A DNA stretch of 64,000 nucleotides from positions 22,231,374 to 22,295,373 of the forward strand of contig CM045762.1 of NCBI GenBank assembly GCA_025200525.1. The letters run 5' to 3'. This stretch comes from Camellia lanceoleosa. Lineage: Eukaryota; Streptophyta; Magnoliopsida; Ericales; Theaceae. Shown in pieces: positions 1,931 through 57,416 of this stretch. Within the stretch, counting starts at the first letter, position 1, and every line of letters begins with the position of its first letter. The notes beneath the pieces are model-generated. The model had not been told where the DNA came from, did no database searches, and saw only the letters and a program-made list of their open reading frames with translations. Made by a program: the position numbers and the translations under genes.

Positions 1931-2000
1931 CCTGTCGGCACTCTATTTAGCCGACCGGCACTTTATTTTGGCCGACGACCAATTTTTCTGGCCGGTTTGC
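1931..2000. repeat. 20-bp phased GC-rich near-palindrome array, LTR U3
   Basis: Four 10-bp GC-rich blocks start at 1931, 1951, 1971 and 1991 (CCTGTCGGCA, CCGACCGGCA, GCCGACGACC, GCCGGTTTGC). They are separated by 10-bp AT-rich spacers, giving an exact 20-bp period. The array ends about 260 bp upstream of the TATA box. The related LTR at 44193-48107 has a matching array at the same relative place. Confidence 0.8.
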
Positions 2001-4185: not shown

Positions 4186-4291
4186 GCCGATCGGCGATAT
4201 AGAGTGCCGACGGTCATTGATGGACACCGATAGCTTTATCTCCAAACCGATGGACATTGTACACGGCGGTGGACATTCTATTCGGCCGATG
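4186..4291. repeat. 20-bp phased GCCGAT-type motif array, distal LTR
   Basis: GCCGATCGGC starts at 4186. Related motifs follow at 4206 (GCCGAC), 4226 (ACCGAT), 4246 (ACCGAT), about 4266 (GCGGTG) and 4285 (GCCGAT): six positions at 19-20 bp steps. The sister LTR has an equivalent array at 45505-45607. This array lies in the part of the LTR downstream of the TATA box. Confidence 0.75.
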
Positions 4292-35308: not shown

Positions 35309-37047
35309 ATGGCCAACGATGGGCAGAAAGAAAGAGTTGGGGGCGACATCCCTAGTGGGAGTGGCAAAAACGCTGATCCTAACGTAGAGGAAGACAACTG
35401 CAACGAAGAACCTCGGGATAAGAATCTCGGAGAAAAAAATACCGGCCAAGAGGGAGACATATCGAAGAAAGCATGTCAGGGTTGGTATTACAACGAAAGC
35501 GACCTCCAGGTATAGAAAGATAGATGCCTAAGGAGGGATGACGAGATGAAGGGGATGGCAAACAAATTGGCAGACCTGCAATCGGTTGTCAATTTCATGA
35601 TGCAGAACAATGTCATGTAACCACCATTCCCATTAGAGGACAAGCCGATTCCAGCGGCCAAGAATGATGCCCAGAATGGGGGGAAAAAAGCAATCCTGCA
35701 GTCCCCCAGCATAACAGAGCGATGGAGCATTCTCATCAGCCTTCACGGGAGGTCAGGCAAGGAGAATTGATGAGAGGAGAGTCTTAGAGGATACATCGTG
35801 CCAAAGAAACCTACACCAAAGAACATTGGCATGTTCAAGGGAAGGAGCTTTGCTTTGACACGACGAATGGAGGGAGGTCCAAGAGGACTCACAATGACAC
35901 CGGGAGCAGTGCACCAAAAAGGTTGAAATCTGTTGACAGCCAAGCTCCTGGACGGACTAAGGAGGATTTGAGGGATTACCTCTAGAGGAAGCGACAGGAT
36001 GCCGAGGTAACATCTCCTGTCAAGCCGAGAACACCGTTCTCGGTGGAATTGGACAAGTTTGAGGCCCCAAAAAGGTTCCACATGTCGAGATTCGAGATAT
36101 ACGACAGTAAGTCTGATCCTAATTTTCACGTCGGCTTGTATTTAAACTCAATGGCACTGTATACTGGGAATGAGTCGTTGCTCTGCAAGGTGTTCCCTTC
36201 ATCTTTTGGGAAAATTGCATCAGATTGGTTTCACAAGTTGTCGAAAGGAATAGTGAAAAGTTGGGAAGTCCTACCCGAGATTTTTGTGGCCAGGTTTGTT
36301 ACAAACAAACTACAGCCCTTGAGGGTAGACTCCCTGATGGCTTTGAGAATTGGCAAGGATGAAAGCCTCAAGGCTTATGCCAAGAGGTATTATGAGGTGT
36401 TTAACCGAATACCAGGGTGCAACCAAGAAGTGGCGGTCGTATCTTTTAACAACGGCCTGAATGATGACTATCTGCTTCGAAAGTCATTAGCAAAGGCATT
36501 GCCAAAAAGTATGGAGGAACTTATGGCCAAGATCAAGAAATATGCGAGAGTAGAGGAAGACACGCCAAGGACAAAGGCGTCAAAGCAAGAGAAGAGGAAC
36601 GGCTCACCGAAGCGAGGCCGAGGTAACACAAATTTTAATAGACAAGAAACAGGACTAAGGGCTACACAGGTAGTCACCACAGTGTTCCGGATCCTGATTT
36701 ACAAAGTCCTAGAGAGAATCAGAAACCAGCCTTACTATGGAGCACTAGAGATGATCCCTGGCGAATTTATGAGAAGAAGCCTGGGGAAGCATTGTGCCTA
36801 CCACAATGAGGATGGGCACCTGACACAGGGGTGCAGAGCCCTAAAGATACATTTGGAAGACCTTGTGAGACAAGGTCAAATAAGGAACCTGGTAGATGAG
36901 GCCAGAACAAGGGAAGAACAAGCAAGGTTGCCCCAGGCATCTGCAGCACCACCTCCACTAGCAGCACAACCGACTGCAGACAGACCTCGAGCGATCAATG
37001 TAATTCACTCAAAGGTCAATGAGAACGAGGTACATGGGGGAGACTGA
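35309..37047 (+). pseudogene. Gag polyprotein of the Tat-lineage element
   Basis: Gag forms the virus-like particle and binds the RNA. The first ATG (35309) opens 69 codons ending in a TAG. Frames are broken to about 36010, then a 334-codon stretch (36043-37047) carries the gag core (KIASDWFHKL, ARFVTNKLQPL, ESLKAYAKRYYEVF). Near its end is a zinc-knuckle-like motif (CAYHNEDGHLTQGC) followed by LEDLVRQGQI. The motif order is that of plant Tat gag. The N-terminal frame breaks prevent a full product. Confidence 0.85.
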
Positions 37048-37089
37048 AAGGGTAAGAGATTTACAACATGTGTATTAGGTCCAACAAAA

Positions 37090-37500
37090 AAAGGCCTAGG
37101 GTAGACGAGTGCCAAGGACCAATGTTGTCTTTTACTGAAGCCAACCTAGACATGGTGCAGCATCTACACAACGATGCTCTGGTGATATCCTTGAAGATTG
37201 GAGAATGCCAGGTAAGGCGCATTCTAATTGACTAAGATAGCTCTTGTGACATCATGTATGTTAGATGTTACAAGGAGCTCGACCTTCACCAAGATGATTT
37301 GGAACAGTCCAACAGCCCAATGGTTGGGTTCAATGGAACGCCGACATGGCCCTTGGGGGCAATAAATTTGGAGATACAGGCAGGCACCCGAAAAATGAGC
37401 ACAGAGTTTATGATCATTGACCCCCCCCACCTTACAACGTTATCTTGGAAAGGCCGTGGTTGCACACAATGAGAGATGTTCTCTCTACATTGCACCAACT
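37090..37500 (+). pseudogene. Aspartic protease domain, inactivated
   Basis: Frames read ALVISLKIGECQVRRILID, then a stop (TAA at 37234-37236), then DSSCDIMY. The active-site motif, normally D-x-G-S-S/T in this clade, is thus broken by a stop at the catalytic loop. A downstream NSPMVGFNG piece fits the protease body. It would have cut the Gag-Pol polyprotein. Confidence 0.7.
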
Positions 37501-37599
37501 ATTATGGATCCCAACAGAATAGGGAATTGAAGAGATCAGAGGAGATCAGGTGCAGGAGAAGAATTACTCCATGGTAGCAATGAAATCCACCTGCAACGC

Positions 37600-39280
37600 A
37601 TTTAGGAGCGCATATAGCCTAGATTGAGGATGAAGACATGGAGGTCCTGGATGACGTGGGCAAAGAACCAGGCGAGAAAAGTGAGGAAGCCTTGAAGAAG
37701 ATTCTAGTCCAACAAAGGGATGATGAGCGTTTCTTCATTCTCGGCTCAGGATTGGTCAAGTAGGAAGAAAGGGAGTTAGAAGCCTTCTTACGAGCAAACA
37801 TTGAGGTGTTTTCCTGGACGCCATACGAGATGCCTAGCATTGACCTCGAGGTCACTTGCCATAGACTGAATATGGACAGGTTGGCTAAACCTGTCATCCA
37901 ACGAGCAAGGAGACCAACGTTTATGCATGTTGAGGCAGTAGAAGAGGAGGTGGGAAAACTGCTAGAGGCCAAAGCCATTCGAGAGGTAAACTACCCAACT
38001 TGGTTGTCAAACACAATAGTTGTGAAGAAAAAGAATTGGAAGTGGAGGGTCTGTGTGGACTTCATTAGCCTAAACAAGGCTTATCCCAAGGATAGTTTCC
38101 CACTCCTCAAAATTGATCAATTGGTGGATGCCACTTCAGGGCATGGAAGGATGAGCTTCTTGGGCTCATACAAAGGGTACCATTAGATAGCAATGTACCT
38201 CCCGATGAGGAAAAGACTGCATTTATCACCTCAAAAGAGTTGTATTGCTACAAAGTGATGCCCTTCGGGTTGAAAAATGCAGGAGCAACCTACCAGAGGT
38301 TGGTGACCAAGATGTCTAGACATCTAATTGGCAAAACAGTAGAAGTATACATTGATGACATGGTCGTGAAGACCAAAGAACCTAAGGATCATTTGGCTTA
38401 CTAGAAGGCAATTTTCGACATCCTTAGAACATATCGGCTCCGACTCAATGCTTTAAAATGTGCATTTGTAGTTGGGTCTGGTAAGTTCTTAGGATACTTG
38501 GTTACCAGAAGGGACATTGAGGCAAGCCCAGATCAAATCAAGGTCATCCTAGACTTGAAGAGTCCAACATCGGCAAAACAAGTGCAGATGTTGACTGGAA
38601 GGGTTGCAACCCTGAATAGGTTCATAAGCAGAAGTTCTAACAAATGCAAACTATTTTTTAATTTAGTGAAAAAGGCCATAGATTTTTTATGGACAGAGGA
38701 GTGCAAAGTTGCCTTGCCCGACTTAAAAAAATACCTGACCACAGCTCTAGTTCTCTCAAATCTAGTACCTGGAGAGGAGCTGTTCGTATACTTGGCAGTT
38801 TCGGAGCATGTAGTAAGTGCAGTGGTAATCAGAGAAGAGAAGGGAGAACAGAGGGCAGTTTACTATGTGAGTAAAACCCTAGCAGGTGCAGAGACCAGGT
38901 ATTTACCCTTGGAGAAATTGACAATGGCGTCCAAGAAGTTGAACCACTATTTCCAAGCCCACAAGATTGTGGTATTGACTGAACACCCCTTGAAGTCCCT
39001 ACTACAGCAAGGAGATCTGACAGACAGGATGGCCAGATGGGCAGTGGTATTGGGCCAATACCATTTGGAGTTCAAACCTAGAATAGCAATCAAAGGCCAG
39101 GCTTTGGCTGACTTCATGGCCGAGTTCACACCTGGAGCCATCCCACCTCGGGCTCCGGTGAGCCGCGGCTTAGGATGTCTAGGCGAACAAGAAGAAACCC
39201 AGCTAGGAATGAAAAATCCCACATCAACAGAGCAGAAAAAAAAAAGAGAAACTCAAACCTTGCGACATTTACAGCGGTGA
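37600..39280 (+). pseudogene. Reverse transcriptase and first RNase H domain
   Basis: RT signatures: the connector to RT at about 37750-37990, YPTWLSNTIVVKKKNWKWRV at 37992, then CVDFISLNKAYPKDSFPL. The catalytic YIDD is at 38348-38359. RNase H follows (YYVSKTLAGAETRYLPLEKL at about 38860, and MARWAVVLGQYHLEFKPR with ADFMAEF near 39030-39125). Stops at 38185 and 38402 and a frame change near 39280 disable it. These domains copy the RNA into DNA and remove the RNA strand. Confidence 0.9.
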
Positions 39281-39289
39281 CTGCTTCTG

Positions 39290-40974
39290 CCTGTTCGTTA
39301 ATGGGAGTTCAAACGGTCAGGGAGGACAGCAAGAGTAGTGCTAGTGTCGCCAGATGGGCGAATGTTAGAACAATCTATTCGATTGGGGTTTAAGGCTTCA
39401 AACAATGAAGCAGAATATGAAGCACCAATCGCAGGACTAAAGTTGGCAGCAGCAATGGAAGCTGAGGAGGTGGTAGTCTTCTATGACTCCCAGCTTATTA
39501 TGAACCAGACAACAGGTAAATATGCAGCCCGAGATGAAAGAATGATAGCCTATGTCAAAGAGGTTGTTAGACTACTGACCTTATTTCAAGACAGTCAATT
39601 GCAGCAGGTTAGCCAAGATGACAACTGCCATGCCGATGCCTTGGCTAACCTGGCTAGTGCAATGAAGTCAGGAGAGGCAAGGACAACAATGGTTGATTAT
39701 TTGTTGGGCCCAAGTGTGGAACCACAGATTAGAGAGTATGAAGCAATGTGTCTGGTGATGGGCCCAAGTTGGATGGACACAATAGTAATGTTCCTTAGAG
39801 ATGGGAAGCTACCAGAGAATAGAAAAGAGGCACACAAGACCAGACTTAAGTCAACGAGGTTCAGTCTGACAACAGAAGGACATCTTTACAAAAGGTCTTT
39901 TACTGGTCCCCTTTTAAGATGTGTGCATCCCTCACAAGTTAAAGAGTTCTTGTATGAAATACATGAAGAAGTATGTGGAAGCCATGCTAGGGGCAGATCA
40001 CTCGCTCAGAGGGTCATTACTCAGGGGTACTGGTGGCCCTACATGCAGAAGGATGCTGAAGCCTATGTTAGAAAGTACGAGAAATGTCAAAGGTTTGCAC
40101 CTTTGATACATCAACCAACAGCAGATTTGAACTCAGTGTCCAGCCCTTGGCCATTTGCCAGTGGGGCATGGATCTAGTTGGGCAATTACCCTAAGCAACT
40201 GGGCAGAGAAAATTCTTGCTGGTAGCAACAGATTACTTCACCAAGTGGGTAGAAGTTGAACCCCTTGCAAAGATTTGAGATATTGACGTGAAGAACTTCA
40301 TATGGAAGAACATCATCAACAGGTTTGGGATCCCAAGGGCAATAATAGCAGACAATGGCACGCAGTTTGATAGCAAGCTAATCAAAACCTTCTGTGCAAA
40401 GTACAAAATCAAGAATTATTACTCTACTCCAAGCTTCCCTCAGAGTAATGGTCAAGCAGAAACATCCAATAAAACAATCCTGGATGGGATCAAGAAGAGG
40501 CTAGAAGCAGTAAAGGGAAACTGAGTGGATGAGTTGCCCAATGTACTCTGGGCATATCGGACTACGTCGAGAAGATCAACTGGGAAATCCCTATTTGCCA
40601 TGGCTTATGGCACCGAAGCAGTTATTCCACTAGAAGTCGGCATCCCAGGGATCAGAACCCAGGGAGTAGAGAATGGGACTAATGAGGCATTCCTGGCCCG
40701 AGATCTAGACCTATTGGAAGAAAAAAGGGAGAGAGCAGCAATTTGGCTAGTGGCATACCAGCAACAACTTGCTAGGGCTTACAACAAGAAGGTTAACTCA
40801 AGAGAATTCAAAGTTGGGGACCTTGTGCTGAGAAAAATGGTCAGCAACAAGAAGGATCCCAGAGAAGGCAAGCTTGGCCCGAATTGGGAGAGACCTTATA
40901 GAATTATCTCGGTTGCCGGTAATGGTGCATATCGGCTTGAGGACAATGATGGCAAAGAGTTTCCAAGACCCTAG
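39290..40974 (+). pseudogene. Second (host-like) RNase H and integrase
   Basis: The extra RNase H is shown by NNEAEYEAPIAGLKLAAAME (39399 onward) and VVVFYDSQLI; a duplicated RNase H is diagnostic for Tat elements. Integrase has an HHCC zinc part (HEEVCGSH ... KYEKCQRF), a core with ADNGTQFDSK and QAETSNKTIL giving the second Asp and the Glu, and a C-terminal domain ending at 40974. The first catalytic Asp region is frameshifted at about 40170. Stops at 40276 and 40522 break the core. Confidence 0.9.
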
Positions 40975-41105
40975 AACATTTGCAACTTGAAGTTTTTCTA
41001 TCATTAGATTTTTGTTTTTTAAAATTTACGTTATTAGCCGAAATAATAATAACATTTTAGCTTGATATTTTTTCAAACTTGTGTAATACCACTAACCAGT
41101 CCTTT

Positions 41106-41385
41106 GGCGATGTTTTTAAGTGAAACATGACCAATAACTTAGACTTATTATATGGCAGAGTTGAATTATACTTGCATATAATAGAGTTGAAGTAAGTTGG
41201 CGATGTTTCTAAGTGAAACATGATGAATAACTTAGACTTATTATATAGCAGAGTTGAATTATACTTGCATATAACATAGTTGAACTAAGTTGGTGATGTT
41301 TCTAAGTGAAATATGACGAATAACTTAAACTCATTATATGGCAGAGTTGAAATTATACCTGCATATAATGGAGTTGAACTAAGAT
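41106..41385 (+). repeat. 93-bp tandem repeat, three copies
   Basis: Units start at 41106, 41199 and 41292 with GGCGATGTTTTTAAGTGAAA-type text and differ by a few substitutions. It lies just after pol, a place where Tat elements often carry tandem repeats. Confidence 0.9.
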
Positions 41386-42166
41386 TGGATTAACCTAGAC
41401 TTGCCATGTCGGTAGAATCAAACTCAGATTGGAACTAAGTGCATTTCAGTAAGATTAACAGAGAAACCAAGGTTGAGAACCTCCACTAGTCTTTGTTTGA
41501 ATCTAACTTCGGCAACAAAATCATAAGCACATGCTTAATGTGAACATAAGTGAAACTTAAGTTCACATTAGGGGGCAGAGAGCTGGAGAATGATGAATAA
41601 AGTTTAAAGTGCTTAGGAGTTGGAATTTTATAGAAAAATTTACAAGATAGAGTTGGCTTAACACTTGTTGAAATTTTCAGAAAAATTTACAAGTTGAAAT
41701 TAAGCCGAGGTAATATTGCAAGAAGTACATACGTACTTGCCGAGATGACCAGGTTGCCAAACTTGGGGAGTATAGAAGACAGAAGTCTTGATAAACTGAG
41801 AGTAAAGTGGCAAGTTTAAAACAACACTTGTGAAAATATTTTTACAAATTTTCAAGTGATAAGCCAAGGTCGAGATAAACAATTACAAGTTATCTCCGAG
41901 ATATTTTACTCTGTGGAGATTATACGATTAAAGGTATAAATTGAAGACATGCCAAATTATTCTAAGTATGAAAGAGGTAGAACACACATAAGAGAAAAGA
42001 AGACATTCAAACACTTAGAAGAAAGAAGGAAACTTGCATTCACAAAAGATTACTTGTTTGGATTACAAAAGCGGCATGTCGGCCAAATGTGAAACGAAAA
42101 CATTGTTCAGGCAAAACAAAATACAAACAAAGGAAGAGAAAGAATACAAGGAAAAGAAGAAATATT
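41386..42166. other. Untranslated spacer between pol and antisense ORF
   Basis: No gene recognised. The GCCGAGGTAA motif of the LTR recurs at 41703. The region would hold the 3' untranslated part of the antisense transcript. Confidence 0.4.
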
Positions 42167-44192
42167 CTAAGTGCTAGGATTGGCTTGGTCGGTTGGTGAT
42201 GTTGCAATCTTGTCGGCCGCTATCTTGGCCTCAATCTCCAGCAGAGTCTGATCCAGACTTTTCTCGGTGCATTGGATCATGGCCTCAGAAGTAGTTGGAT
42301 TAGGAGAGACGCCCTTGGAAACCAAGTCATCCTCCTCATCTTGAGTTAAGTCTATTTGCTCATTGAGGGTAGGAGGCTTGGGATCAGTGGCAGCCTCCCC
42401 CTCCTCTTCGTTGGCCTCATTATCATCGGCATCATCTTCGGCTTTATCGCCGGAGTCCTTGGGCCCTGGTAGGAAAGGCACTTCAAGCTGACTAATATCC
42501 CGAAGATCAGAGTCCATGGGAATGGCCAACTTGTTGAGGGCCACCATCCAACTAAGGTAGTAACCTCAGTTATAAGCCAAGTTGATTTGCTGTTTGTATT
42601 GGTCACGGACGACGACCTGCCCCTCTTCAAAAGCTTTTTCGTCGGCCGCCTTTACCTCGACCTCTTTATTGGCAAGAGCCTCCTGAAGCTTGACCTCCAT
42701 GTCAGCTACTTTGGCATTGGCAGCTTCGAGGTCGGCTCTTGCTGCCTTGGCTTTGTCTTTTGCCATTTTGACCTTTTCCTTGGTTAGACTTTGAGTAGTT
42801 TTGGCGTCCTTGGCCTGGTCCATTAGAGCGTGGTTGCTGGCCTTGGCCTTGTTGAGTGAAGAAAGGAATTTGGCTGCTTCCTTGGTCTTTTTGGCCAACT
42901 CCTTCATCATCATCTCGGTTTTTACAGCATACATGCTGAATAGCCTGCAAGAAGCAAAACAAATTAGTGAGATTTTGTCTAAGTATTTAAAGAACTATGA
43001 AGAGCTGAGTAGTAAAGGATTACCAAAACTGAGTGTTACATCATAAGAGCAAAATTTTCATACTCATGGAACTCAGCCATGCAGTTCATGTCTTCGGGCA
43101 GTAGAACTGCCGTGCACAGGGCCGTACCGACCTCAAGGTTCACAGCACTGTCACCAGCGGTAAGAGGTCTGTTGTCGAGCGTGATCTCGGGCGCCCAGAC
43201 TGTGCTTCGGGAGTAGCTGCTGCCTTCTTGGTGGTCGGACCTTTGCTTTTTGACCGAAGGGGTCTTAGATGTTGGATCCTCGGTTGGACATTTTTCGGCA
43301 GAAGGAGCGCTCCTCTCGGCCTCAGCCAACTTCGAGATGGGCACAGTGTCTTCAGAATCGATCTGAGTCATTGTGGCCTTTGCCTTGGCCTTCTTCATCC
43401 GCTTTGGCTTTGGGGTTGGTTGGGAAGGAAAAGATGAGGATTGAATTGCCACCACCTCGGGGATGTTAGTGAGAAAATCTTCAACAACTGCTGGTTTGCG
43501 CCCCATCTCGTCGGCGGTGGCAGTGACAATGACTTTGGTGCCGAAGTGAATTGTTGGTAGTGTAGTGGGTGGGTTGGCTGGATCATAAGCTGATGCCTGA
43601 GCACTTTGGCATTTTTGGCTACGGGTTCTACCAGTAGGAGTGTTGGCAGGAACTCGGCTACGACATCAGTGATTATGTGGAGGAATTAATTACGGAGCAG
43701 AAATGGACGGTTGCTCTACAGGACCAGAGGTTGACCCCTGGTCTGGCCTTAATGATGATTCAGCTTGCGGAGTCGTAGCAGAAGGAGGGGACTTGCTCTT
43801 CTTAGGGATGTCGGGCAAGGTAGATTTGTAGGTTGGGATGTAGTTGAGCAATAGGGGGGCTTTGCGTTGGTTGACTGGCAAGTCCAGCAGCCTCTTAAAG
43901 TCTTTACTGGGGAAGAAAGTCTTGCGAAAGTCTTTTGGTGATTACAAAACACAGACATTAGTACATATAGAGGAATAAAGTAATAAAGACTTAAAGAACA
44001 TGTAAAGTGACACTTGGTTCTTACCATTTCCCTCTTTGAACATTGTTCAGCTCGAAGGATAGAGGTGGGGGTCGTCGTCAGGTGGGAACTCCCAATTGCC
44101 CGAGACGATGAAATAATCATCTCCAGCACCTTTGTTGGAGTCTGGGAGTTTGGCTATGAGTTTGTACTTAGTGGCTCTCGAGTTGAGGTAAT
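42167..44192 (-). pseudogene. Antisense ORF of the Tat-lineage element, coiled-coil protein
   Basis: Minus-strand coding pieces opposite to gag-pol. 44192-44051 contains YFIVSGNWEFPPDDDPHLYP and ends in a stop. 43900-43690 contains a KAPLLLNYIPTYK-type proline/serine-rich part. 43506-43036 is a basic, Ser/Pro-rich linker. 42934-42566 is a Lys/Ala/Glu-rich coiled coil (TKEAAKFLSSLNKAKAS ... LEAANAKVADMEVKLQEAL). 42547-42167 is an acidic tail ending DQANPST. A likely intron lies between 43040 and 42950, with acceptor TTGCTTCTTGCAG. A single stop separates the coiled coil and the tail. The 5' end is cut by the insertion at 44193. Antisense ORFs in this place are known from Tat elements such as Grande and Retand; their role is not settled. 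Confidence 0.7.
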
Positions 44193-45504
44193 TGTAGATG
44201 TCCCCGAACGCCCCGGGATGGTTAAGTCCCGTTCCGTTCATATTGGGGTCACTACAGTTCGGACTCGATTTGTCACGGTTCTAAATCTGAACCAAAGAGT
44301 CCAAATCCGGCAAATCGTTTTGAGAAACAAATTTTTGAAAAGAAGTGCCAAACATGGACTGCTTTGCCAGATACAGAGTCGCCACCTAAATATTTTTTTT
44401 TTTTTAAAATGGGAAATTTAGGAAACCCTGACTCGGTGCCGAAGGCCACGTGTCCGTCATCATCAAAGTTGCCTCGGCTCGGGAATTTGGGTACGATCGG
44501 GGAAGGTCAGCTATGAGCACCCCCTTTCGCCCGGTCCGAAGACCGGCCTCTACTAACCATGATATCCGATTTTGAAAGCGTTATGTGTTCTTATTCCAGT
44601 TATTAGCCTAGAATTACTATGTTATGCGCACAGCAAACAAGTATAGACTAGATTGCTTAATTTGGAAACAAGCATTGCATATCCGTTTGTTTTGAAAAAC
44701 GCTTCGGAATTTGCTACTCGCAAGTAGGCTAAAACACGGATTTCAACGAGTTTTTCCAACTCAAACAATCTAACCTTCACTCACAGGCATTCAAACAGTT
44801 TATCTCATATAAGCATTTAGCCTCATAGTAATCATGCTGTCCTGTTAACATTCACACGCATGCGAGATGCTAAAGCGTAAATACTTACATTGTACTCCGT
44901 GCCAAAACAATAAACTAGTTAGCAAACGTGCATGCCCTAGTTCATGTTAGAGTGACTAATGCATCGCATACAGAATGTGATTAGGATAGGCTCGACTAAC
45001 CCTAAAATGGCATGTGAAATGCAATCATTCGACGCACGTATTCAAGTTAGATTTGAAGATACAATGCGGTTTGTATGATGTACCGAGCCCGGTGCATGTA
45101 AGACAAATGTATGGATGCACGCATGCATTGCATAAGGTATGCTAAAATAAACGTGCCCTAATCTACCATCATAAGCAGGTAAATAAAAGGGAAGAAAGAA
45201 GTGGGGGTTGGAAGACATGCACACCACTCACACACGCTTATTACAGATATGCCCTCACTCGGAGAGACCAAAAGAATATACAGTCCAAATAATGAATAAA
45301 TAAATTATTACAAAATTTCTAATTTAATTAACAATTTAAATGCAGAATAGAAAAGGCCGCAGCCCCGCCTCGGGATGTGCGAATGATGCATGCTCGGATC
45401 CGACTCGCCCGGGAAACCCGTACCATACCATCAAGGCCTTTTTTTTATCGCCCCGCTTTTCAAATCGCCAAAGTCCTGAACACCTATGCATGCTGCTGCA
45501 CACC

Positions 45505-45607
45505 ATCGGCTGGGGGAAACGCCCACCGGTCATCTAAAATTTCCATCGGCTGCTTAGAAGGTTATCGGCCACCCACATAGTGCCGGTTAAGACTCTATAT
45601 TGCCGGC
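45505..45607. repeat. Phased CGGC-type motif array, distal LTR
   Basis: ATCGGC/ACCGGT-type motifs start at 45505, 45525, 45545, 45564, 45582 and 45602, steps of 18-20 bp. This is the counterpart of the array at 4186-4291 in the solo LTR. Confidence 0.7.
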
Positions 45608-47492
45608 GTAAAATTCTGCAGAAGACGCTTTGTGACAACAGAATAAGCGAAGGCTTGGTATGGGATTTTGAGCATATGTAAGCATGGCCAATGCTCCCTA
45701 TCATGTATGAGACTCAAGGAAGCATGCCCCTTGGTTCTTGGGCCATCAATTATGCATCTTGGTGCATGATAGCCTAAGGAACCAAGATTGCATTTCAATA
45801 TCAATATGCATGCAACACACAAATGAGAACTAAGTCCCTATCATGTCAAGATCAAGGGCCTTAGTGACCAAGAGTTGAGACAAGTTGCATCACTTGTGGT
45901 ATGAACTCCTCTCAACCCTTACACTTGGTTTGACACCCCAAACCAAGTAATGCAATGCATGTTATGCAAACATGGCTCAACAATGCAACATGATGCTAAA
46001 ATGCAAGGCATGCCAAATGTAATGCAACATGCAAGGTGCAAATGCAATGTAAACATGGACAATTTAGGCAATAGGGTTAACATGTAGCAAGACCATATTA
46101 ATCAAACACGCAACAAGCATTAGACAAATGTGCAATGATAAGCTTAAACCATGATGGGGCAGACCTTAATCCACCCCAAAACAGTGGCCAAAAGTGCCCC
46201 ACAAGATGGGCAAATGCCCAAGTCAACATGCAACCATAAAGGCTTAAAGCTAAGGCACAAAGTGGAGCATTCCACTACCTACTAAAATGACCACTCATGG
46301 CATATATTAGGCAAGCAAAAATAGAGCTCTATCATGCAAAATACACCCAAACCCTTTGACATGGTAGTCCCACAATACCTTAAACAAGCAAGCATGCATA
46401 AGGCCTATTCCTAGGCATAAAAGGACACATCCTCAAAGCATGAAATAGGTCACATATGCAAACATACAAACATGATTTATGGACTGAAATATGATCCTAA
46501 ATGATGCCAAATCATGAGGATGGACTAAGGTGAGCATACTAGAGGCCAAAATACTCAAGGCTTGCAAGCCCAAAATGCACAACAACCACATCAAGCATGC
46601 CAAACATGGAAAAATCAGTGGCTCACAGCCCTTAAACATGACAAAATGAGGCTAATATCTTCATGGAGTTAAGCTAATACATGCAAGAATCATGGCCTAA
46701 ACACAAGATGCATTTCCATGCCAAATAGAGGAATGCTAAGCAAGTATGTTAAGCATGCAGGAGGCCAACAAAACACCATTAGACAGAGATAAAATATGAT
46801 CTAAAACACCCAAAAAAGTTCTGAAATGGCGCCAAAGACAAGCAAGCATGCATGTTCCCTTTTAAGCCAAAGACAAAGGCAAAAGAGGGACAAAGGGGAG
46901 AGGGGTGTCCCTCCCCTATACAAGACTTCAAACCACCTTCCTTACCACTAAAAAAACCCACTGGTTTTCAGTGGTGAGAAGACCAAAATAACAAAGCAAA
47001 CAAAGCTCAAAAGTAAAGGCACCAAAGAGGCCAAAATAAGGACTAAGAGGGTGAGTTTGCACTCAAACCACAAAGTGACCTTAATGAAAGTTCAAAAGCA
47101 AGAAAATATAAGACTTTTTTCAGTTATACACAAAGCTCAAAACACAAAGCAAGATAGGTAAAAACTTGTTGTAAAAATGGGGAATCTAAAGTAAAGTGCT
47201 CACCTTTGAAGAACACTTGAAGAACAGGTGGCATAGCCCTCTTCTATTGATCAAAACTAGTCCAAAAACTCAACAAACAACCCTCCAAGCCTCCCAATCT
47301 CGAGCTAAGGTGTAATGGTGTGTGTATTGGTGCAAAAGTAAGGTAAAACCACACTTTTAGGCCCTAAAACACACACACAAGAGGAGAGAGAGGGAAAGTC
47401 TAGAGAGAGAAGATATATGGCAGCTATATAGATACACAAGCTCTGGTTTTTGATAAAAAATGGCTAACCCCTTTCAATGGGAGAGGAGGGGT

Positions 47493-47502
47493 GCTTATAT
47501 AG
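47493..47502 (-). promoter_or_regulatory. LTR TATA box, minus strand
   Basis: The minus strand reads CTATATAAGC. The position relative to the U3 array matches that of the solo LTR at 1200-5549. Confidence 0.5.
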
Positions 47503-47596
47503 GCCAAGACAAAGCCAAATAACTTAATGGCTAAGCAAAGAGAAAGGTTCAAGGGGGGCAAAAGAGTCTAGGCTTCTTGGAAAAGCTAAGATAATG

Positions 47597-47645
47597 CCAA
47601 GCTTCTCCAAGAAGCTTGGCCAAAGGTTCAAGCTTCTAGAAGCTT
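47597..47645. repeat. AAGCTTCT palindromes in LTR U3
   Basis: CCAAGCTTCT-CCA-AGAAGCTTGG (47597-47619, 10-bp arms) and AAGCTTCTAGAAGCTT (47630-47645, perfect 16-bp palindrome) lie upstream of the TATA box on the minus strand. They are similar in place to the 17-bp inverted repeat at 2138-2186. Confidence 0.8.
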
Positions 47646-47770
47646 AGAGGGTTCAAAGGTGCAAAGTGGTCACACTTATGCACGGGGGAATGTGATGGTG
47701 CATTCCAGCTGGCATAGCTGGCATGCACCAAAGCTAGGGTGAAAAGAGGTCCTGCTTGACAGGCCAAAAG

Positions 47771-47890
47771 GTCACCGGCACAATAAAGTGCCGGTCGGCT
47801 AAACATAGTGCCGGCCGGCCATTGTTTTTAAGAAAACATTGCCGGTGGTACCCATGTGCGGCCGGTGATGATAGGGGAGGGCCGGTGGTG
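47771..47890. repeat. 20-bp phased CCGGTCGG-type array, LTR U3
   Basis: GC-rich 10-bp blocks at 47771 (GTCACCGGCA), 47791 (CCGGTCGGCT), 47811 (CCGGCCGGCC), then 47841, 47861 and 47881 (GCCGGTGGTA, GCCGGTGATG, GCCGGTGGTG). The period is exactly 20 bp within each group of three, with a 30-bp step between groups. It is the counterpart of the array at 1931-2000. Confidence 0.85.
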
Positions 47891-48107
47891 TGTGGGGATG
47901 GCTAATAAGCCATCCCCTGCCCTTCCAAGGCAAAACACAAGTGTTTGGTGCAAAACCAGACACAAAACGGTCGAGTTCGGAGATCCTGAGATAGGGCGCG
48001 TAGCCGAGACCTCTGGGAACTCCAAACGAACACAAACATGGATAATCACCGAGTGTTCAAACGGCGACGTCCAAGTCTTGAGGATGGTCAAAAATGGGGT
48101 GTCTACA

Positions 48108-48124
48108 GTTGCCCCTCTTTGACC
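48108..48124 (-). promoter_or_regulatory. Polypurine tract
   Basis: The minus strand reads GGTCAAAGAGGGGCAAC immediately before the LTR start TGTAGACA. This is the plus-strand priming site and proves that 44193-48107 is a 3' LTR. Confidence 0.8.
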
Positions 48125-48591
48125 GAACTCGAAAGTCATAACAATGATGGGAGTGAATGTCAAAGCCCAGAGACGACCCATTTTTGACAAGGCCGAAGAC
48201 TTGGACAAACATGCAAGACAAACAAGGTATGCGCCCGAAGGCAGGGGCAAAATGCAATTGAAAATGCAAGAAGCCGAGCATAACTTATGATCATGCAAAG
48301 AAAGCTGTAATGAAGCATGCATGCGACAGTTTTAAGCTAGCGTACACCAATCTATATTACAATGCAGAAAGGATGTAAGAGAATTATGCAATTCTCGATA
48401 CGTCTCACTCGGAGGATACAATACCTGTGCGGCTCGTCGGGTTGCACCGGCCTCAAATGAATCGTACATACAATATCGTGCCTGAAAAGAAGACAGACTT
48501 AACAGGTACAATGTCATTAACAATATGCATGACAATGCAGTCAAAAGCGCGTGGCAACGTATGCAATGTGTATAGCAAGATAGTGGGATTG

Positions 48592-50127
48592 AACACATGT
48601 GAGTAAAGCAATGCACGCATGCAAGCAATGTATATATAAAGAAACCCGGAATTGAACATATGCAAGTAAAGCAATGCACGCATGCAAGCAATGTATATAT
48701 AAAGAAACCCAGAATTGAACATATGCAAGTAAAACAAGCGATCAATGCGAGCAATGTGTATGGAAAGAGAACTTGAACACATGTGAGTAAAGCAATGCAC
48801 ACATGCACGCAATGTGTATATAAAAGGAACTTGAACACATGCAAGTAAAGCAATGCACGCATGCACGCAATGTGTATATAAAAGGAACTTGAACACATGT
48901 AAGTAAAGCAATGCACGCATGCACGCAATGGGTATATAAAAGGAACTTGAACACATGTGAGTAAAGCAATGCACGCATGCACGCAATGTGTATATAAAAG
49001 GAACTTGAACACATGTGAGTAAAGCAATTCACGCATGCACGCAATCTGTATATAAAAGGAACTTGAACACATGTAAGTAAAGCAATGCACGCATGCACGC
49101 AATGTGTATATAAAAGGAACTTGAACACATGTGAGTAAAGCAATGCACGCATGCACGCAATGTGTATATAAAAGGAACTTGAACACATGTGAGTAAAGCA
49201 ATGCACGCATGCACGCAATGTGTATTATGAAAGGAACTTGAACACATGGAAGTAAAGCAATGAACACATGCACGCAATGTGTATATAAAAGGAACTTGAA
49301 CACATGTAAGTAAAGCAATGCACGCATGCACGCAATGTGTATATAAAAGGAACTTGAACACATGTGAGTAAAGCAATGCACGCATGCACGCAATGTGTAT
49401 ATAAAAGGAACTTGAACACATGTGAGTAAAGCAATGCACGCATGCATGCAATGTGTATATAAAAGGAACTTGAACACATGTAAGTAAAGCAATGCACGCA
49501 TGCACGCAATGTGTATATAAAAGGAACTTGAACACATGGAACACATGTAAGTAAAGCAATGCACGCATGCACGCAATGTGTATATAAAAGGAACTTGGAC
49601 ACATGTGAGTAAAGCAATGCACGCATGCACGCAATGTATATATAAAAGGAACTTGAACACATGTGAGTAAAGCAATGCACGCATGCACGCAATGTGTACA
49701 TAAAAGGAACTTGAACACATGTGAGTAAAGCAATGCACGCATGCACGCAATGTGTACATAAAAGGAACTTGAACACATGTAAGTAAAGCAATGCACGCAT
49801 GCACGCAATGTGTATATAAAAGGAACTTGAACACATGTGAGTAAAGCAATGCACGCATGCATGCAATGTGTATATAAAAGGAACTTGAACACATGTAAGT
49901 AAAGCAATGCACGCATGCACGCAATGTGTATATAAAAGGAACTTGAACACATGTGAGTAAAGCAATGCACGCATGCACGCAATGTGTATATAAAAGGAAC
50001 TTCAACACATGTGAGTAAAGTAATGCACGCATGCACGTAATTTGTATATAAAAGGAACTTGAACACATGTGAGTAAAGCAATGCACGCATGCACGCAATG
50101 TGTATTATGAAAGGAACTTGAAATTGA
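48592..50127. repeat. 58-bp minisatellite in the 3' untranslated region
   Basis: About 26 head-to-tail copies of a 58-bp unit (AAAGGAACTTGAACACATGT, GAGTAAAGCAATGC, ACGCATGCACGCAATG, TGTATATA). The left three units are diverged and slightly longer. Successive starts at 48781, 48839, 48897 and 48955 show the period. One unit near 49535 has a small internal duplication. Since 58 is not a multiple of 3 and the unit has no minus-strand stop, long overlapping minus-strand frames up to 588 codons appear; they are not genes. Variable tandem repeats between pol and the 3' LTR are known in Ogre-type elements. Confidence 0.95.
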
Positions 50128-50155: not shown

Positions 50156-50935
50156 ACGTACTGCAACACAGTATGATTGATATGATTTACAGAATTCACA
50201 AGATATAAAAGGATACGGGAAGGAGCGTCCTTCGCATGTGCCGAGCATCGCTCACAAAAGTCATGGCCTGAGGTCAACTCGAAAGTCCACTTGCATTCTG
50301 ACAGTGCATTTTCTTGTATTGCCTTGAATGATGAAGGTGCCAAACCACACAATTGACCCGAACAAGGGCGCGAAAGGTATAATGACCGCGAGGGGAGGTT
50401 ACTGGTATCCATTCGGGTACCCTGCTACCCTGTTATTTTCCTGCTTTACTTTCCTTTTTATTAGGAGTTTAAGCATATTGCATTGCCTCAGGCAGGTTCT
50501 ATTTTTTTTGAATTCGCATATTTTTCTTCTTCTCTTTTTTTAGAAATACATGACGGAAATGAAACAGCTATTTGTTCAAAAGGTGTTGCATTTGCACGTT
50601 CTATGCATCGCATCGTAAGGCATCACATAAAAATGTGAATCAAATTCACACTGTATTTTGAAAACGAAGCATCGCATCGTAATAATCAGGTAGTGAACCA
50701 ATTACAACTCGATAAGCAAAGCAAAGGATCTCGTTTCAGCTGGGTGCAAGTACAACTCGATAAACAGTACAAAGACTTAAAGAGAGAGTGAAATACAACT
50801 CGATAAGCAAATATACAACAACTCGATAAGCAAATGGGTGTGCCCTCGTGAGAATTGATCACTGGAGGGTATTGGAGGGTGGTGGGATTTTCCAATCCTT
50901 AGCATGGAAAGCTCAGGGGACAAGAGGGGGAACTA
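50156..50935. other. Spacer with short ACAACTCGATAAGCAA repeats
   Basis: No gene recognised. Copies of ACAACTCGATAAGCAA or close variants lie at about 50704, 50751, 50795 and 50818. The region lies upstream of the antisense ORF. Confidence 0.5.
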
Positions 50936-51062
50936 TCGGCCCAGCTAAAAGTCCACCGGCCGTGAGTAAAGGCCATCGGCCAAAAAAATGATCCATCGGC
51001 CAAAACAGATGGCCGGTCGACAATATATTTGGCCGGTCGGCAATCTATTCGGCCGATCAGCC
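50936..51062. repeat. 20-bp phased CGGCC-type array upstream of antisense ORF
   Basis: TCGGCC-type motifs with the TC step at 50936, 50956, 50976, 50996, 51017, 51037 and 51057: seven copies at 20-21 bp. The first four read ATCGGCC/ACCGGCC and the last three GGCCGGTCG/GGCCGATC. The array lies 40-165 bp upstream of a TATA-like CTATTTAACC (about 51101) and 110-240 bp upstream of the ORF start. The same motif family forms the arrays in the LTRs. Confidence 0.85.
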
Positions 51063-51173
51063 AAGAATGGGAGGAACCAGCAGAATGCTGACACCTATCC
51101 TCTATTTAACCTTATCTCCTACAAAAGACCCCAGCTTCGTAGTTTTCTTCATTTCCACTCTGATTTACTCCAA

Positions 51174-52458
51174 ATGGAAGAATTCCTTGCCCAAAATCTC
51201 GCAACTTGGATTAACAACTTGGATGGCTCTAAAAGTGAATTTCCTGCCTTCAAGATAAACGCACTATTCACTTTATGCCGCACCCAAGATTTTCCATTTT
51301 TTCATGCTGCGACAAGGTTTTGGAATCCGGTGACACACGTCTTCAGCTTTAGCGGGCAAGAGGTGTGTCCTACCTTCAAAGATTTCCAAGCTCTAATGGA
51401 AACTAAGCGTAATGAAGAAATTTTGCCCCAACTTCGTTTTGGCCATGCCCAAGTCTTAGGGCAAATGTGTGGGCTCTCAATACCCGATGCTCGTTCTCTG
51501 ATTCGTGATGGGATGTTGGACGTTCCAAGCTTGGTTTGCCGTTTTTCTGAGACTGGTGATTGTGGTGACCATCGCTGGCAAGGCTTCCAGCGACACACCC
51601 TCTGTTTGTGCATGCTGTCTCATTTTCTGTTTGTCTTAGGTTCCGGAGGGTCTAGTGTCCGGTTGATTGAGGTTGCCCAAGGCTTGAAGGAGGGCAAAAG
51701 CTGCATCGCCATGATTCTGGCTGAGACGTTGCTGGGCTTAGACGCCTTTTATCGTCGAGAGACGACCAGATTAGCAGGGAGTCCACTATTACTGCAGGTA
51801 ATGTTTCCCGCCCAATCTCACATATATGTTTGCTCACATCACTCGGCCCTCAGGCTCGGTTTTTCTCACAAAAACCCCTTTCTTACTTTTTCTCTCATCG
51901 TACATCTCTCTATTATTTATTCTCTCATTTTTCATCCCTCCCCAGGTATGGTTGATGGATAAACTGCAGGTTGTGGACTCTTGCCCAACTTATTCAGCTC
52001 GCGGTTACTTTTTTTAGCAACGCCTAGTTGACGCCCTCGACGAGGGTTGGTGGTTCGAATGGATGTGCAGTCTGTCCGCAGACCGTATTGCTTGGCGGTG
52101 CTCTTGGCTCAATTTCCCGGTAATGAGCTACAGCATGACCCGTCAACTCGGGATCCAATTGATTGGCTTGACTCATTGTGTCTTCTACTTTTCGTTTCGT
52201 ATCCTGCGCCAGTTCGGTCATGATCAGACTTGTCCGCCGGAAGGGATAGAGTACCCGGCTACATTCCCGATTCGAGGCGCACAGCTGGCCCGATATGCCA
52301 CAGCATGGAGGACGAGAGAACTCCTGGCCCCTGCTCCCACCTTCAGTTGCACTTTGTCTGAAGAGTGCTTGGATTGGCTTAATGAAGAGGCACAGGAAGG
52401 GCCCACTTTGTCATCAGAGGCTTCGACCAGCTCTGGGAGGGGGCGTAGGAGCACCTGA
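51174..52458 (+). pseudogene. Antisense ORF of the Ogre-like element, plant-mobile-domain-like protein
   Basis: On the plus strand, opposite to gag-pol. The start is placed at the ATG at 51174 (CAAATGG context), although the frame is open from 50988. Exon 1 (51174-51797) contains FPAFKINALFTLCRTQDFPF, VCPTFKDFQALM and HAQVLGQMCGL. An intron (51798-51945, 148 bp) has GT/AG ends and a pyrimidine-rich 3' end. Exon 2 (51946-52458) continues in frame with VWLMDKLQVVDSCPTYSARG, then a TAG at 52015, then DALDEGWWFEWM and IRGAQLARYATAW. It would be 378 codons but for this one stop. The pattern recalls plant mobile-domain proteins, found both in host genes and in retroelements; the exact family is uncertain. 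A nuclear or DNA-related role is only a guess. Confidence 0.65.
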
Positions 52459-53150: not shown

Positions 53151-54361
53151 TCAGGGGTAATATTTCTTCAACTTGTCTATGTTGATCGGTTGGGAGAACT
53201 CTAGGCCATCTAGGTCCATCAGAACCACAGCTCCACCTGACCAGATAGACTTGATGATATAGGGACCAGTCCAATTGGTTCTGAACTTGCCCCTTGGGTC
53301 GTGGATAGGAGCTCGGTTGTCTTTGAGTACCAAATCTCCTTCCTTCAAATTCCTGGACTTAACCTTCTTGTTAAAAGCCCGGGCAATTCTGTGTTGATAT
53401 CCTTGGACATGGTATAGTGCTTTTAATCTCCTCTCATCGAAGAGCATGAGTTCCTCGAATGCTTCTCGCCAATGCCTCGGCTATTTGACACTCGGCCAAT
53501 ACTGTAAAGACGAACCTCAATCTCTATAGGTAGAACGGCCTCCATCCCATAAACCAAGGAATACGGGCGCCTCAGAGACGTTCTAATTGAAGTTCGGTAG
53601 ACCCACAGAGCAAACGGCAACTTATCTGGCCAATCCCGGTAGGTTTCCACCGTCTTCTGCAATATGTGTTTGATGTTCTTGTTGGCGGCCTCAACTGCTC
53701 CGTTGGTCTGCGGCCGATATATGGACGACTTATGAAAAGCCACATTGTATTTCTCCAACAAATCAATCACCTCTTTCTTGAAGTGGGAACCATTGTCTGA
53801 AATGATCTCGTTCGGGACTCCATAACGGTAGATAATGTTGTTTCTTATAAACTTTGCGACATGCGAAGCCTTCAGCACCGCATAAGATTGGGCCTCGACC
53901 CACTTCGTAAAGTAATCTATTGCTACCAAGATAAACTCATGCCCATTTGACCCCTTTGGGGTAACAGCCCCAATCACATCAATTCCCCAAACTGAAAATG
54001 GCCATGGCGACGTCATGTTGTACAGCTTTGATGGCAGGATGTTCATGCGGTTCGCATGGATCTGGCATTTGTGGCATCGCCGAACAAAGCCGATACAATC
54101 TTCCTCCATGGTAGACCAGTAGTAACCCTGTCTGAGGATTTTCTGTGCCAGCATTACCCTATTCATATGTACCCCACATTCTCCTCCATGGATGGCCTCC
54201 ATCAGGCGCTTCGACTCTTCAGCTTCTACACACAACTTGTGCATTCCCAGGTGACCTCTTTTGTACAATTTACCCCCGCAGATGATAAACTGAACAGCCA
54301 TTCTTCTGATTGCCCTTTTGTCCTTGGCATTTGCCCCTGGTGGGTACGCCTTCTTTTCCAA
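53151..54361 (-). pseudogene. Integrase of the Ogre-like element
   Basis: Minus-strand frame 54361-53423 has the HHCC zinc part (HGGECGVHMNR ... CHKCQIHAN), the three catalytic acidic residues in VWGIDVIGAV, IISDNGSHF and GAVEAANKNI, and the core end YGMEAVLPIEIE. A frame change at about 53440 leads into the C-terminal domain (53447-53151) with the GDLVL and NWTGPYIIKSI motifs. The DDE triad is intact. It would insert the element DNA into the genome. Broken by the frameshift and by the missing N-terminal part of the polyprotein. Confidence 0.9.
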
Positions 54362-54382
54362 GAAGTTCCATATGTCGTAATA

Positions 54383-55027
54383 CTAGGGGTTGTTGTCCTG
54401 CACTTCATCTATGGCAGAGATTGACTCGTAAGCAGGTGCAAATTTCTGGTCAATAATGACTGGACGCATCCAGACTCTAGATGGGATGTCTATCATAGAA
54501 GATAGAGTTGCTAACGAATCTGCGAACCTATTGTTCTCTCTTACTAGGTGGGTGAAATTTAACTTCTCAAACCAAGGAATTAATAAATCCAAGATCTGGT
54601 GGAAAATTATCATCCTTTCCTCCTTGACTTTCTAGTCTCCTTTCGCCTGAGACACAACAAGGTTCGAGTCCCCAACGACGTCTAACCGCCTTGCCCCTAG
54701 TTCTAGGGCCGCTTCTAGACCGGCAATACATGCCTCATACTCTGCCTCATTGTTCGAGACTTTGAACCGAAGCTTGAATGCTAAAGGGATACGGGAATCG
54801 TCAGGCGCTATCAGTAACACCCCTATCCCATACCCATACTGATTTGATGCTCCGTCAAAGTACATCGTCCAAGTTTCATCTTCGATGTGCAGAATAGCTT
54901 CATCTGGGAATAGGTACTCAACCGCTTCATCCCCTTCAACCGGGTGGTCGGCAAGGAACTCTGCTACCGCTCTCCCTTTTACGGACTTGCGCGTCACATA
55001 CTTGAGATCAAATTCGGAGAGCAACAA
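54383..55027 (-). pseudogene. Host-like second RNase H
   Basis: FDLKYVTRKSVKGRAVAEFL (end of the first RNase H), then WTMYFDGASNQYGYGIGVLL, VSNNEAEYEACIAGLEAALE and LDVVGDSNLVVSQAKGD. This is the duplicated RNase H of the Tat clade. A stop at about 54630 separates a short tail (54613-54383). Confidence 0.9.
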
Positions 55028-55031
55028 AGCA

Positions 55032-55795
55032 TTAACGAGCTAGCCTACCGTAAGTCTTGGTTTCTCGAAAAAGATATTTGATGGGATCGAGTCGTGAAAC
55101 CAACATTACAGAGTGAGCTAACAGTAGTGCCGCAGCTTCTGGTAGCCCATACCAAGGCCAAACAAGCCTTCTCCAAATGAGTGTAGCGGTCTCGTAATCC
55201 AAAGATCTTCTTGCTCGATAGTAGATGGCCCTTTCTACTTTATCTTCCGACTTGTGCGAGCATGCACCCATTGTAGTCTCTTCTTCGACAGTACAATATC
55301 AACGGTTTCCCGGCTTTGGTGGTGACAACACGGCGGATTCTGTAGATGCTCTTTAACTGCTCAAATGCTTGGCATCGGCCTTCCCATTGGAACTTCTTTC
55401 CTTTCTTCGAAGACCAAAAGTGGTTCACAAGTTAAGGTTAGTTTTGAGATAAACCGCCTTATGAATTGCACTTTACCCGAAGCCTCGCACCTCCTTTTCA
55501 CCATTGGTGGTGGCATTTCTAAGATGGCCTTGATTTTAGAAGGGTCGACTTGATGCCCCTTTGTGTAATCGAAATCCCAAAGATTTTTCCCAGTAACACC
55601 AAACGTACACTTCTGAGGATTCAGCCGCAGCTGAAATTCTCGGATCCTTTGGAAAATTTTTTGCAAGGCGGTGTAGTGGCCCTCTCTTTCTTTGGACTTG
55701 ACAATCATGTCGTCCACGTACACCTCGACCTCTTTATGGATCATGTCATGTAATATTATGGTCGCAGCCCGTTGATATGTAGCTCCAGCATATCG
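55032..55795 (-). pseudogene. Reverse transcriptase C-terminal half and first RNase H
   Basis: The minus strand begins AGATYQRAATIILHDMIHKE, then VYVDDMIVKSK, the intact catalytic YVDD. KCTFGVTGK and PPPMVKRRCEASGKVQFIRR follow, then RNase H pieces in two frames (55428-55032). Frame changes near 55400 and 55250. The N-terminal half of RT is absent; the sequence right of 55800 is LTR in the opposite orientation. Confidence 0.85.
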
Positions 55796-55806
55796 CATGC
55801 GTGTGA
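55796..55806. other. Head-to-head junction between two Ogre-like copies
   Basis: Left of here minus-strand RT codons; right of here plus-strand LTR text (CGCATGCGTGTGAATGTTAA) that also occurs in the other two LTRs. The GCATGCG at the border can be read in both and may be junction microhomology. Confidence 0.7.
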
Positions 55807-56457
55807 ATGTTAACATGACAGTATGATTACCATGTGGCTAAATGCTTATGTGAGATAAACTGTTTGAATGCCTATGGGTGGAGGTTGGGTTGCTTGAGTT
55901 GGAAAACTCATTGAAATCCGTGTTTTAGCCTACTTGCGAGTAGCAACTTCAAATTGTTTTCCAAACAAGCGGATATGCAATGTTTATTTCCAATTTAGGC
56001 AATCTGGTCTATACTTGTTTGCTGCACGCATAACACAGTAATTCTAGGCTAATAATTGGAATAAGAGCATGTAATGTTTTCAAAAACGGATATCACGGTT
56101 AGTAGAGGCCGGTCTTGAAATTTGGCGAAAGGGGGTGCTCATAGCTGACCTTCCCCGATTGTACCCAAGCTCCCGAGCCAAGACCACTTTGGTGATGACG
56201 GACACATGGCCTTCGGCACCGAGTCAGGGTTTCCTAAATTTCCCATTTTAAAATATTTAGGTGGCAACTCTGTAATCTGGCAAAGTAGTCCATGTTTGGC
56301 ACTACTTTTCAAAAAATCTGTTTTCTCAAACGATTTGCCGGATTTGGACTCTTTGGTTCAAGATTAAGAACCGTGACAATCGAGTCCGAACTGTAGTAAA
56401 CCCAATACGAACAGAACGGGACTTAACCCTCCCGGGATGTGTTCAGGGATGTCTACA
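55800..56457 (+). mobile_element. 5' LTR, 3'-terminal fragment
   Basis: Ends GGATGTCTACA at 56457, five bases before the primer site. It matches 4921-5549 and 44193-44890 (minus), with shared blocks such as GTTAGTAGAGGCCGGTCTT and CCTTCGGCACCGAGTCAGGG. The upstream 3 kb or more of the LTR is missing. Confidence 0.9.
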
Positions 56458-56480: not shown

Positions 56481-57416
56481 TTTTAGAGAGCTTGACTCGA
56501 ACTCGTGGTATCCTGTTTTGACTACACATATGTGTTTCTTTGCATTTCATGTGCATTGGTGTGCCTAGGACACCGTGTTGGCCATCTGCTATTCTTGAGC
56601 GGTTTGCCAGAGGCTTGTCTTGTCAAGGCATGTCCATAAGGCTGACCGGTTGCGGGCTCTGCCGATGTAGAACACAAACCCGGTTTTCGGGGCACCCTTC
56701 GACCATTCGACCTAGTGCATATCGAAATCCGTAGTGACCATTCCAAACTAGGACGGGTTGCTCACCCGATATTAGGTTGTTTGAAACATTGCATGCATAG
56801 TGAAACCCTAGCTCTCGACAAAATAGGGCGAAACCCTACCCCAACATAGGGGTGTATTGGCTCTCATTTATCTGCTATGTGCTTTTAGAGTGTATCTCTA
56901 CAGGAACACACATGTCAGTTTGCAAGATTGGGTATCAGGTCTGAGGGCATCAGTAATAGTATTTTGGGGAATCAGTTATCTGTGGGTACAAGATTCAGAC
57001 ATTGGGGGCAATGATTGACGATGATCGATATTTGAGAGCGATGTATCGGGTTCAGCGTGTTATCCAAACCATGTGTTGTATGTTTATTTTATGCCGTTGT
57101 GCTGTCCAATTGTCTGTTTATTTATACGCTTTATTTATCTCTTTATTAGGTAGTTGAGCACGATTGCTACCGACCCGATAGATATTCCCCAAGCACCCTG
57201 GCTTAGAGGCCGTCGACTCCTTCGATCTGAGGATCTGATAGACGGACAACCAGTGTACTACTCACTACCCTCGGTTACTAAACGAGGTCAAGAAGCGTAA
57301 GACATCAAGTGATCGGTTCAAGGGCTTTATCTACCCCACGTGTTCGATAGGGATCGGGATTACGTGTCACCGACAGAGAGAGAATATATACCAAGAATCC
57401 AACGAGCGAGGATAGC
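56481..57416 (+). other. Untranslated leader
   Basis: 936 bp with no supported coding sequence. Ogre elements often have an extra ORF before gag; I do not see one here. Confidence 0.5.

Follow-up and report, generated by a model that had tools for sequence, protein, structure and literature searches.

The window analysed here, a 64,000-nucleotide stretch of the Camellia lanceoleosa genome, is plant DNA carrying several transposons. One of them, a long terminal repeat (LTR) retrotransposon denoted as element A, is arranged on the minus strand as pol, an oppositely oriented antisense open reading frame (ORF), a 58-bp repeat, a purine-rich tract and a 3.9-kb LTR. A phased array of a GC-rich dyad lies before the antisense ORF at 50935-51061, and the same motif forms four more phased arrays in this retrotransposon family. 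The array and the gene behind it are as follows.

50935..51061, plus strand: phased array before the antisense ORF (aORF array), 7 dyad or half-dyad sites GCCGRYCGGC with steps of 20, 20, 20, 21, 20 and 20 bp
51174..51797, plus strand: exon 1 of the antisense ORF, for a protein of the DUF7745/plant mobile domain (PMD) type
51798..51945, plus strand: predicted GT-AG intron of the antisense ORF; joined homologs span both exons
51946..52458, plus strand: exon 2 of the antisense ORF, with one in-frame stop

The sites of the aORF array start at 50935, 50955, 50975, 50995, 51016, 51036 and 51056. Sites 1-4 are right half-sites AYCGGCC, and sites 5-7 are whole or near-whole dyads (GCCGGTCGAC, GCCGGTCGGC and GCCGATCAGC), which is why the preliminary description of this DNA listed two motif forms. 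Its claim of seven motifs at 20-21 bp steps was confirmed by the site positions and by shuffle tests. Within 50881-51100, AYCGG occurs seven times, five same-strand pairs lie exactly 20 bp apart and four sites form a chain, and none of 5000 dinucleotide shuffles equalled the count, the number of pairs or the chain. Across the window, 10 AYCGG pairs at 20 bp were found (shuffle mean 0.05, maximum 1, 200 shuffles), and a half-site model found the 20-bp spacing 24 times (mean 0.69, maximum 5, 200 shuffles). At 19-22 bp the window holds 30 half-site pairs, 26 inside the five arrays and 4 outside, although these counts are non-independent because both halves of one dyad are counted separately, and the motif was chosen post hoc, after inspection of the sequence.

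Tandem Repeats Finder reported just 2.3 copies in the array (51010-51055); the motif recurs and the spacers mostly differ. When the 29 units of the five arrays were stacked, information was found mainly in the site bases at columns -4 to +5 (0.4-1.5 bits per column), with little in the spacers (mostly <0.4 bits) except for an A-rich middle. The observed/expected ratio of CpG was 1.19 in the aORF array versus 0.24 in the next 111 bp, and 0.94-1.44 in the five arrays versus 0.52 and 0.48 in the two whole LTRs and 0.60 in the window, a high value that is partly built in because the motif itself contains CpG. We also considered a hairpin or cruciform as the common function of the arrays. The aORF array folded as DNA was better than its shuffles (z -3.40, 2/200), whereas the array of LTR A folded as RNA was not (z 0.35, 114/200), and the idea was therefore dropped.

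The remaining arrays are located in LTR A, the 3' LTR of element A, and in LTR B, a plus-strand copy from 1200 with 67% and 81% identity to LTR A in the aligned pieces. A partial third copy, LTR C, lies at ~55782-56450.

44197..48108, minus strand: 3' LTR of element A, ends placed by visual inspection, using TGT...ACA and the likeness to LTR pieces B and C
47774..47890, minus strand: 6-site array of LTR A, upstream of the TATA box, with steps of 20, 20, 31, 20 and 20 bp
47496..47501, minus strand: TATATA of LTR A, from the sequence
45505..45611, minus strand: 6-site array of LTR A, ~1.9-2.0 kb downstream of the TATA box, with steps of 20, 20, 19, 22 and 20 bp
1934..1996, plus strand: 4-site array of LTR B, upstream of the TATA box, with steps of 20, 21 and 20 bp
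4186..4290, plus strand: 6-site array of LTR B, downstream of the TATA box, with steps of 20, 19, 20, 20 and 20 bp

LTRs A and B are alike in having one array ~265-390 bp upstream of the TATA box and another ~1.9-2.0 kb downstream. As such, the earlier proposal that the motif arrays stand both at the LTR promoter and at the antisense ORF holds as regards the shared arrays, but each LTR has two arrays and not one. The aORF array and both downstream LTR arrays have the pyrimidine order T, C, T, T at the first four sites in common. In permutation comparisons of the ten array pairs, with uncorrected p values, the aORF array resembled the downstream array of LTR A in 42/60 site bases (0.025) and 24/60 spacer bases (0.023), and that of LTR B in 47/60 site bases (0.0085) and 19/60 spacer bases (permutation mean 16.2; 0.26). 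The two downstream arrays resembled each other in 39/60 site (0.0085) and 29/60 spacer bases (0.005), and the same comparison found no notable likeness between the aORF array and the upstream, promoter arrays. Judging from this shared site order, the internal array and the LTR are likely related by copying, in one direction or the other.

Copying of this kind would also be expected if the arrays were decayed 20-bp minisatellites, carried around the family without function. Tat elements accumulate tandem repeats between pol and the LTR (PMC11963269), element A has its 58-bp array as well, and the A-rich middle retained in the spacers together with the common site order agrees with such an origin. 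However, the motif was kept while the spacers drifted, as is seen between the aORF array and the downstream array of LTR B, the information is concentrated in the sites, and the motif would have been retained at five places independently, so we regard functionless minisatellites as distinctly unlikely.

The antisense ORF, when joined at 51797/51946, has 378 codons with one stop in exon 2; the splice is predicted from the GT-AG borders and homologs, and a working protein would need to come from other family members because of the stop. A search with the single sequence found 37 relatives (E 0.001 or better), 28 of them with a source name, which was Camellia in every case. A profile search gave 136, and among the 120 listed, Rhododendron and Vaccinium also appeared at 26-36% identity. 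DUF7745 was matched in 18 of 25 aligned relatives and PMD in 7 of 25, and a scan of just the two exons of the window found no Pfam match at 0.01. The database also includes relatives of 330-400 residues that have no stop, some of them gene predictions. The antisense RNA itself could be what matters, pairing with the sense RNA to give small RNAs that tune the element, with the arrays just setting its level. In tea, 175 phased-siRNA loci have been reported at plant mobile domain genes (PMC10673657), and double-stranded RNA has been raised as an idea for antisense ORFs (PMC7264820). This explanation seems highly improbable, considering that long spliced ORFs occur in many Camellia database proteins and that it gives no role to the LTR arrays.

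Scans of viral contigs and of a genome-contig set gave no DNA relatives of the antisense ORF, and conservation of the array was checked on translated upstream stretches of database proteins. By pattern search, 8 of 123 retrieved proteins had an upstream extension before the start, of which six stop short of the array and two reach it. In P0033, a database protein of Camellia sinensis, the translation runs through the array region and matches residues 1-70 of the window ORF from 50988 at 63%; the match is gapless from the fourth array site into the ORF, and the same frame was assumed for the first three sites. The codons of P0033 permit 35 of the 42 motif bases in the register of the window, the best of 21 registers (next 32), and this score was equalled by 3 of 5000 residue shuffles. 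Four of the seven sites are fully allowed, and the rest are at 5, 4 and 2 of 6. A looser pair count was weaker for P0033 (82/2000 shuffles) and not significant for P0120 alone (294/2000). In raw counts, 40/54 site bases and 49/84 spacer bases are alike between P0033 and the window. At the level of permitted codons, these results support that a second Camellia copy, represented by P0033, preserves the array register.

A candidate core promoter of the antisense ORF lies between the array and exon 1.

51103..51109, plus strand: TATTTAA, the TATA-like box of this candidate promoter, read from the sequence

The TATA-like box reported after the array in the preliminary description is thus present, but it is poorly conserved. 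We compared seven database peptides with upstream extensions (P0006, P0014, P0033, P0055, P0083, P0097 and P0112), aligned by eye on shared residues, and none of them can encode TATTTAA at this place, which weakens the case for the box; P0033 and P0097 could encode TTAAA. A promoter/terminator consensus scan of 50900-51300 returned nothing, as expected from a consensus set of bacterial types.

To the arrays and the gene can be added a predicted structure. The modelled fold of a relative of the antisense-ORF protein is a far better match to VANC21 in complex with its DNA than to any other chain in the comparison, and searches with two profiles and two single sequences gave no sequence match to VANC21 at E up to 10. 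In VANDAL21, arrays of YAGTATTAY in non-coding DNA are bound by VANC21, which causes loss of methylation locally and more widely (PMC5735166). In the same study, motif density matters, VANC6 uses other motifs, and the targets evolve as tandem repeats (PMC5735166).

The predicted VANC21-like fold, together with arrays in the LTR and before the antisense gene, points to an element that likely uses its antisense gene to stay on. The antisense transcript would be spliced to give a DUF7745/PMD protein, which would enter the nucleus, bind the phased dyads of the LTR and those preceding the antisense ORF, and so open both the LTR and the antisense units. We therefore propose tentatively, at somewhat less than even confidence, that the aORF array is a binding array for a VANC-like antisense-ORF protein that keeps the LTR and its own upstream region unsilenced. 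What is observed comprises the ORF, its protein family and the arrays with their spacing and positions, and the splicing and the fold are predicted. From these we infer that a promoter lies just before 51174, that the protein binds the arrays and that silencing is lost, hence joint control of sense (LTR) and antisense transcription. Such joint control, possibly through the antisense ORF's own product, had been proposed from the first inspection of this DNA; the shared arrays, the predicted fold and the register in P0033 bear it out in part, and the poor conservation of the TATA-like box does not. That the product reads the arrays gains independent support from the modelled fold of the relative, support that is itself a prediction.

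The direction of the effect, opening and not repression, is suggested by analogy with VANC21. Alternatively, binding of the arrays by the protein might repress both the LTR and the protein's own promoter, as autoregulation or copy-number control. An array at the protein's own promoter is what negative autoregulation would have, and a role in silencing is reported for MAIN and MAIL1, which are PMD relatives (PMC5418596, PMC7156037). However, the solved structure that the model resembles is that of an anti-silencing protein, and the route of MAIN and MAIL1 is in part indirect, via MORC1 expression (PMC9899485). Repression is thus judged improbable.

A serious rival, although we think it unlikely, is that a host transcription factor binding GCCGRY-type sites uses the arrays as enhancers. 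The LTR and the antisense promoter would then share the arrays because both need to be active in the same cells, with some other task left to the antisense protein. Host factors with GC-rich sites exist, such as those of the DREB type with RCCGAC, and GTCGGC/GCCGAC is present among the sites; in both LTRs, the array that precedes the TATA box by a few hundred bp also suits an enhancer. Nevertheless, most sites are GCCGGT/GCCGAT and not one host core, and host enhancers leave the downstream LTR arrays and the VANC21-like predicted fold unexplained.

The remainder of element A points to a known group of retrotransposons.

53151..55837, minus strand: pol of element A in broken pieces, from domain matches
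55361-55837, minus strand: reverse transcriptase (RT), domain match
55032-55298, minus strand: weak RNase H, domain match
54383-55039, minus strand: additional RNase H RVT_3, domain match
53423-54382, minus strand: integrase, domain match
48589..50122, no strand: 58-bp tandem repeat, 26.1 copies, between the antisense ORF and the 3' LTR

RVT_3 (6e-10, 5.9e-4) sits between the weak RT_RNaseH (0.027, below the cut-off) and integrase. The order of RNase H, additional RNase H and integrase is a mark of Ogre and Retand elements, and 57% of Ogre elements carry a plant mobile domain as an extra ORF (PMC6317226). Element A has both features of this Tat clade (Ogre/Retand), namely the additional RNase H order and, via its relatives, the PMD-type extra ORF. 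A primer binding site for tRNA-Arg is a further mark of Ogre elements. Element A lacks its 5' end, and in copy C the LTR is followed by TGGCGACTCTGCTGGGGA. The TRP28 domain, a mark of the Retand antisense ORF, was matched neither in the scanned pieces of the window, including those of the second Gypsy-type element described below, nor in 25 relatives. With its place antisense to pol, between pol and the 3' LTR, the antisense ORF has the position of a Grande-type gene.

Several other observations were made in the window. At 55782-55837, the RT of minus-strand element A directly meets LTR piece C, which belongs to the same family and lies on the plus strand, so that the two stand head to head at a rearranged junction, and two lone half-site pairs at 20 bp in the leader of copy C (56645-56670 and 57353-57378) may be due to chance. 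A 588-codon minus-strand open frame through the 58-bp repeats (48332-50098) is probably a repeat by-product, and an ARAGORN tRNA-Trp call inside LTR A (47570-47646) probably reflects an inverted repeat and not a true tRNA. LTR A seems to be inserted at ~44197 into a second Gypsy-type element on the plus strand (36043-44196; gag and pol pieces), which has opposite-strand open frames at 42167-43506. Another array with 20-21-bp spacing, of the palindrome CCGCACGTGCGG, lies in an unrelated repeat at 17734-17919, making a second kind of transposon with phased dyads. Tandem units of 20-21 bp (TGGCATAAAGCCCTTGAAA) were found inside a repeat at 8112-8396, the end of which (7308-7780) matches 18733-19209, inverted, at 67%.

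Antisense ORFs and PMD proteins of transposons have both been described before. A review calls the function of antisense ORFs unknown (PMC7264820), another calls PMD proteins enigmatic (PMC8616336), and PMD proteins acting against silencing have already been suggested for transposons (PMC5418596 for PMDs captured by Mutator-like elements, MULEs; PMC8616336). The available parts of the literature on transposon PMDs name no target sites and draw no link between the PMD and VANC folds. The window gives a concrete and testable candidate answer, in which one element carries both the putative targets and the gene for a protein predicted to fold like VANC. Should this be true, the sequence-specific anti-silencing of Mutator-like DNA transposons would extend to some of the largest plant LTR retrotransposons, and an origin of MAIN and MAIL1 would be suggested. 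In its general form, which we consider more doubtful but conceivable, the PMD genes of Ogre-type retrotransposons would be a VANC-type anti-silencing system in which one reverse-encoded protein reopens both transcription units via dyad arrays, and VANC, retrotransposon PMDs and MAIN/MAIL1 would share one DNA-reading fold, used in transposon attack and in plant defence.

Among known systems, the extra ORFs of Ogre are like the one here in being PMD/DUF7745 ORFs in a Tat-type Gypsy element, and the PMD-A clades are Gypsy-encoded (PMC5418596); the available text of these accounts, however, mentions neither phased target arrays nor a VANC fold (PMC6317226, PMC5418596). Maize Grande gene23 and Retand TRP28 likewise come from an antisense ORF between pol and the 3' LTR with tandem repeats nearby (PMC7264820, PMC11963269), the Grande ORF with an established promoter of its own (PMC7264820) and the Retand ORF with predicted DNA binding (PMC7264820, PMC11963269). 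In contrast with the case here, they belong to different protein families, and the available descriptions give no common LTR and internal motif arrays. Arabidopsis MAIN and MAIL1 are PMD proteins tied to a promoter motif (DOWN, CATGCAGTTT in MORC1; PMC9899485), but they are host genes in silencing and the DOWN motif is dissimilar to the GCCGRYCGGC dyad. Another close parallel is with VANC21 and VANC6 of Arabidopsis VANDAL, where an element-encoded protein is likewise found with dense arrays of a short motif in the non-coding parts of the same element, and where the DNA-bound VANC21 is resembled by the predicted fold of the antisense-ORF relative. Unlike VANDAL, a Mutator-like DNA transposon, the element here is an LTR retrotransposon with RT, RNase H, integrase and LTR and a gene antisense to gag-pol, so we describe it as VANC-like and not as VANC; its motif is a GC-rich dyad in both orientations, whereas the YAGTATTAY of VANC21 has one orientation.
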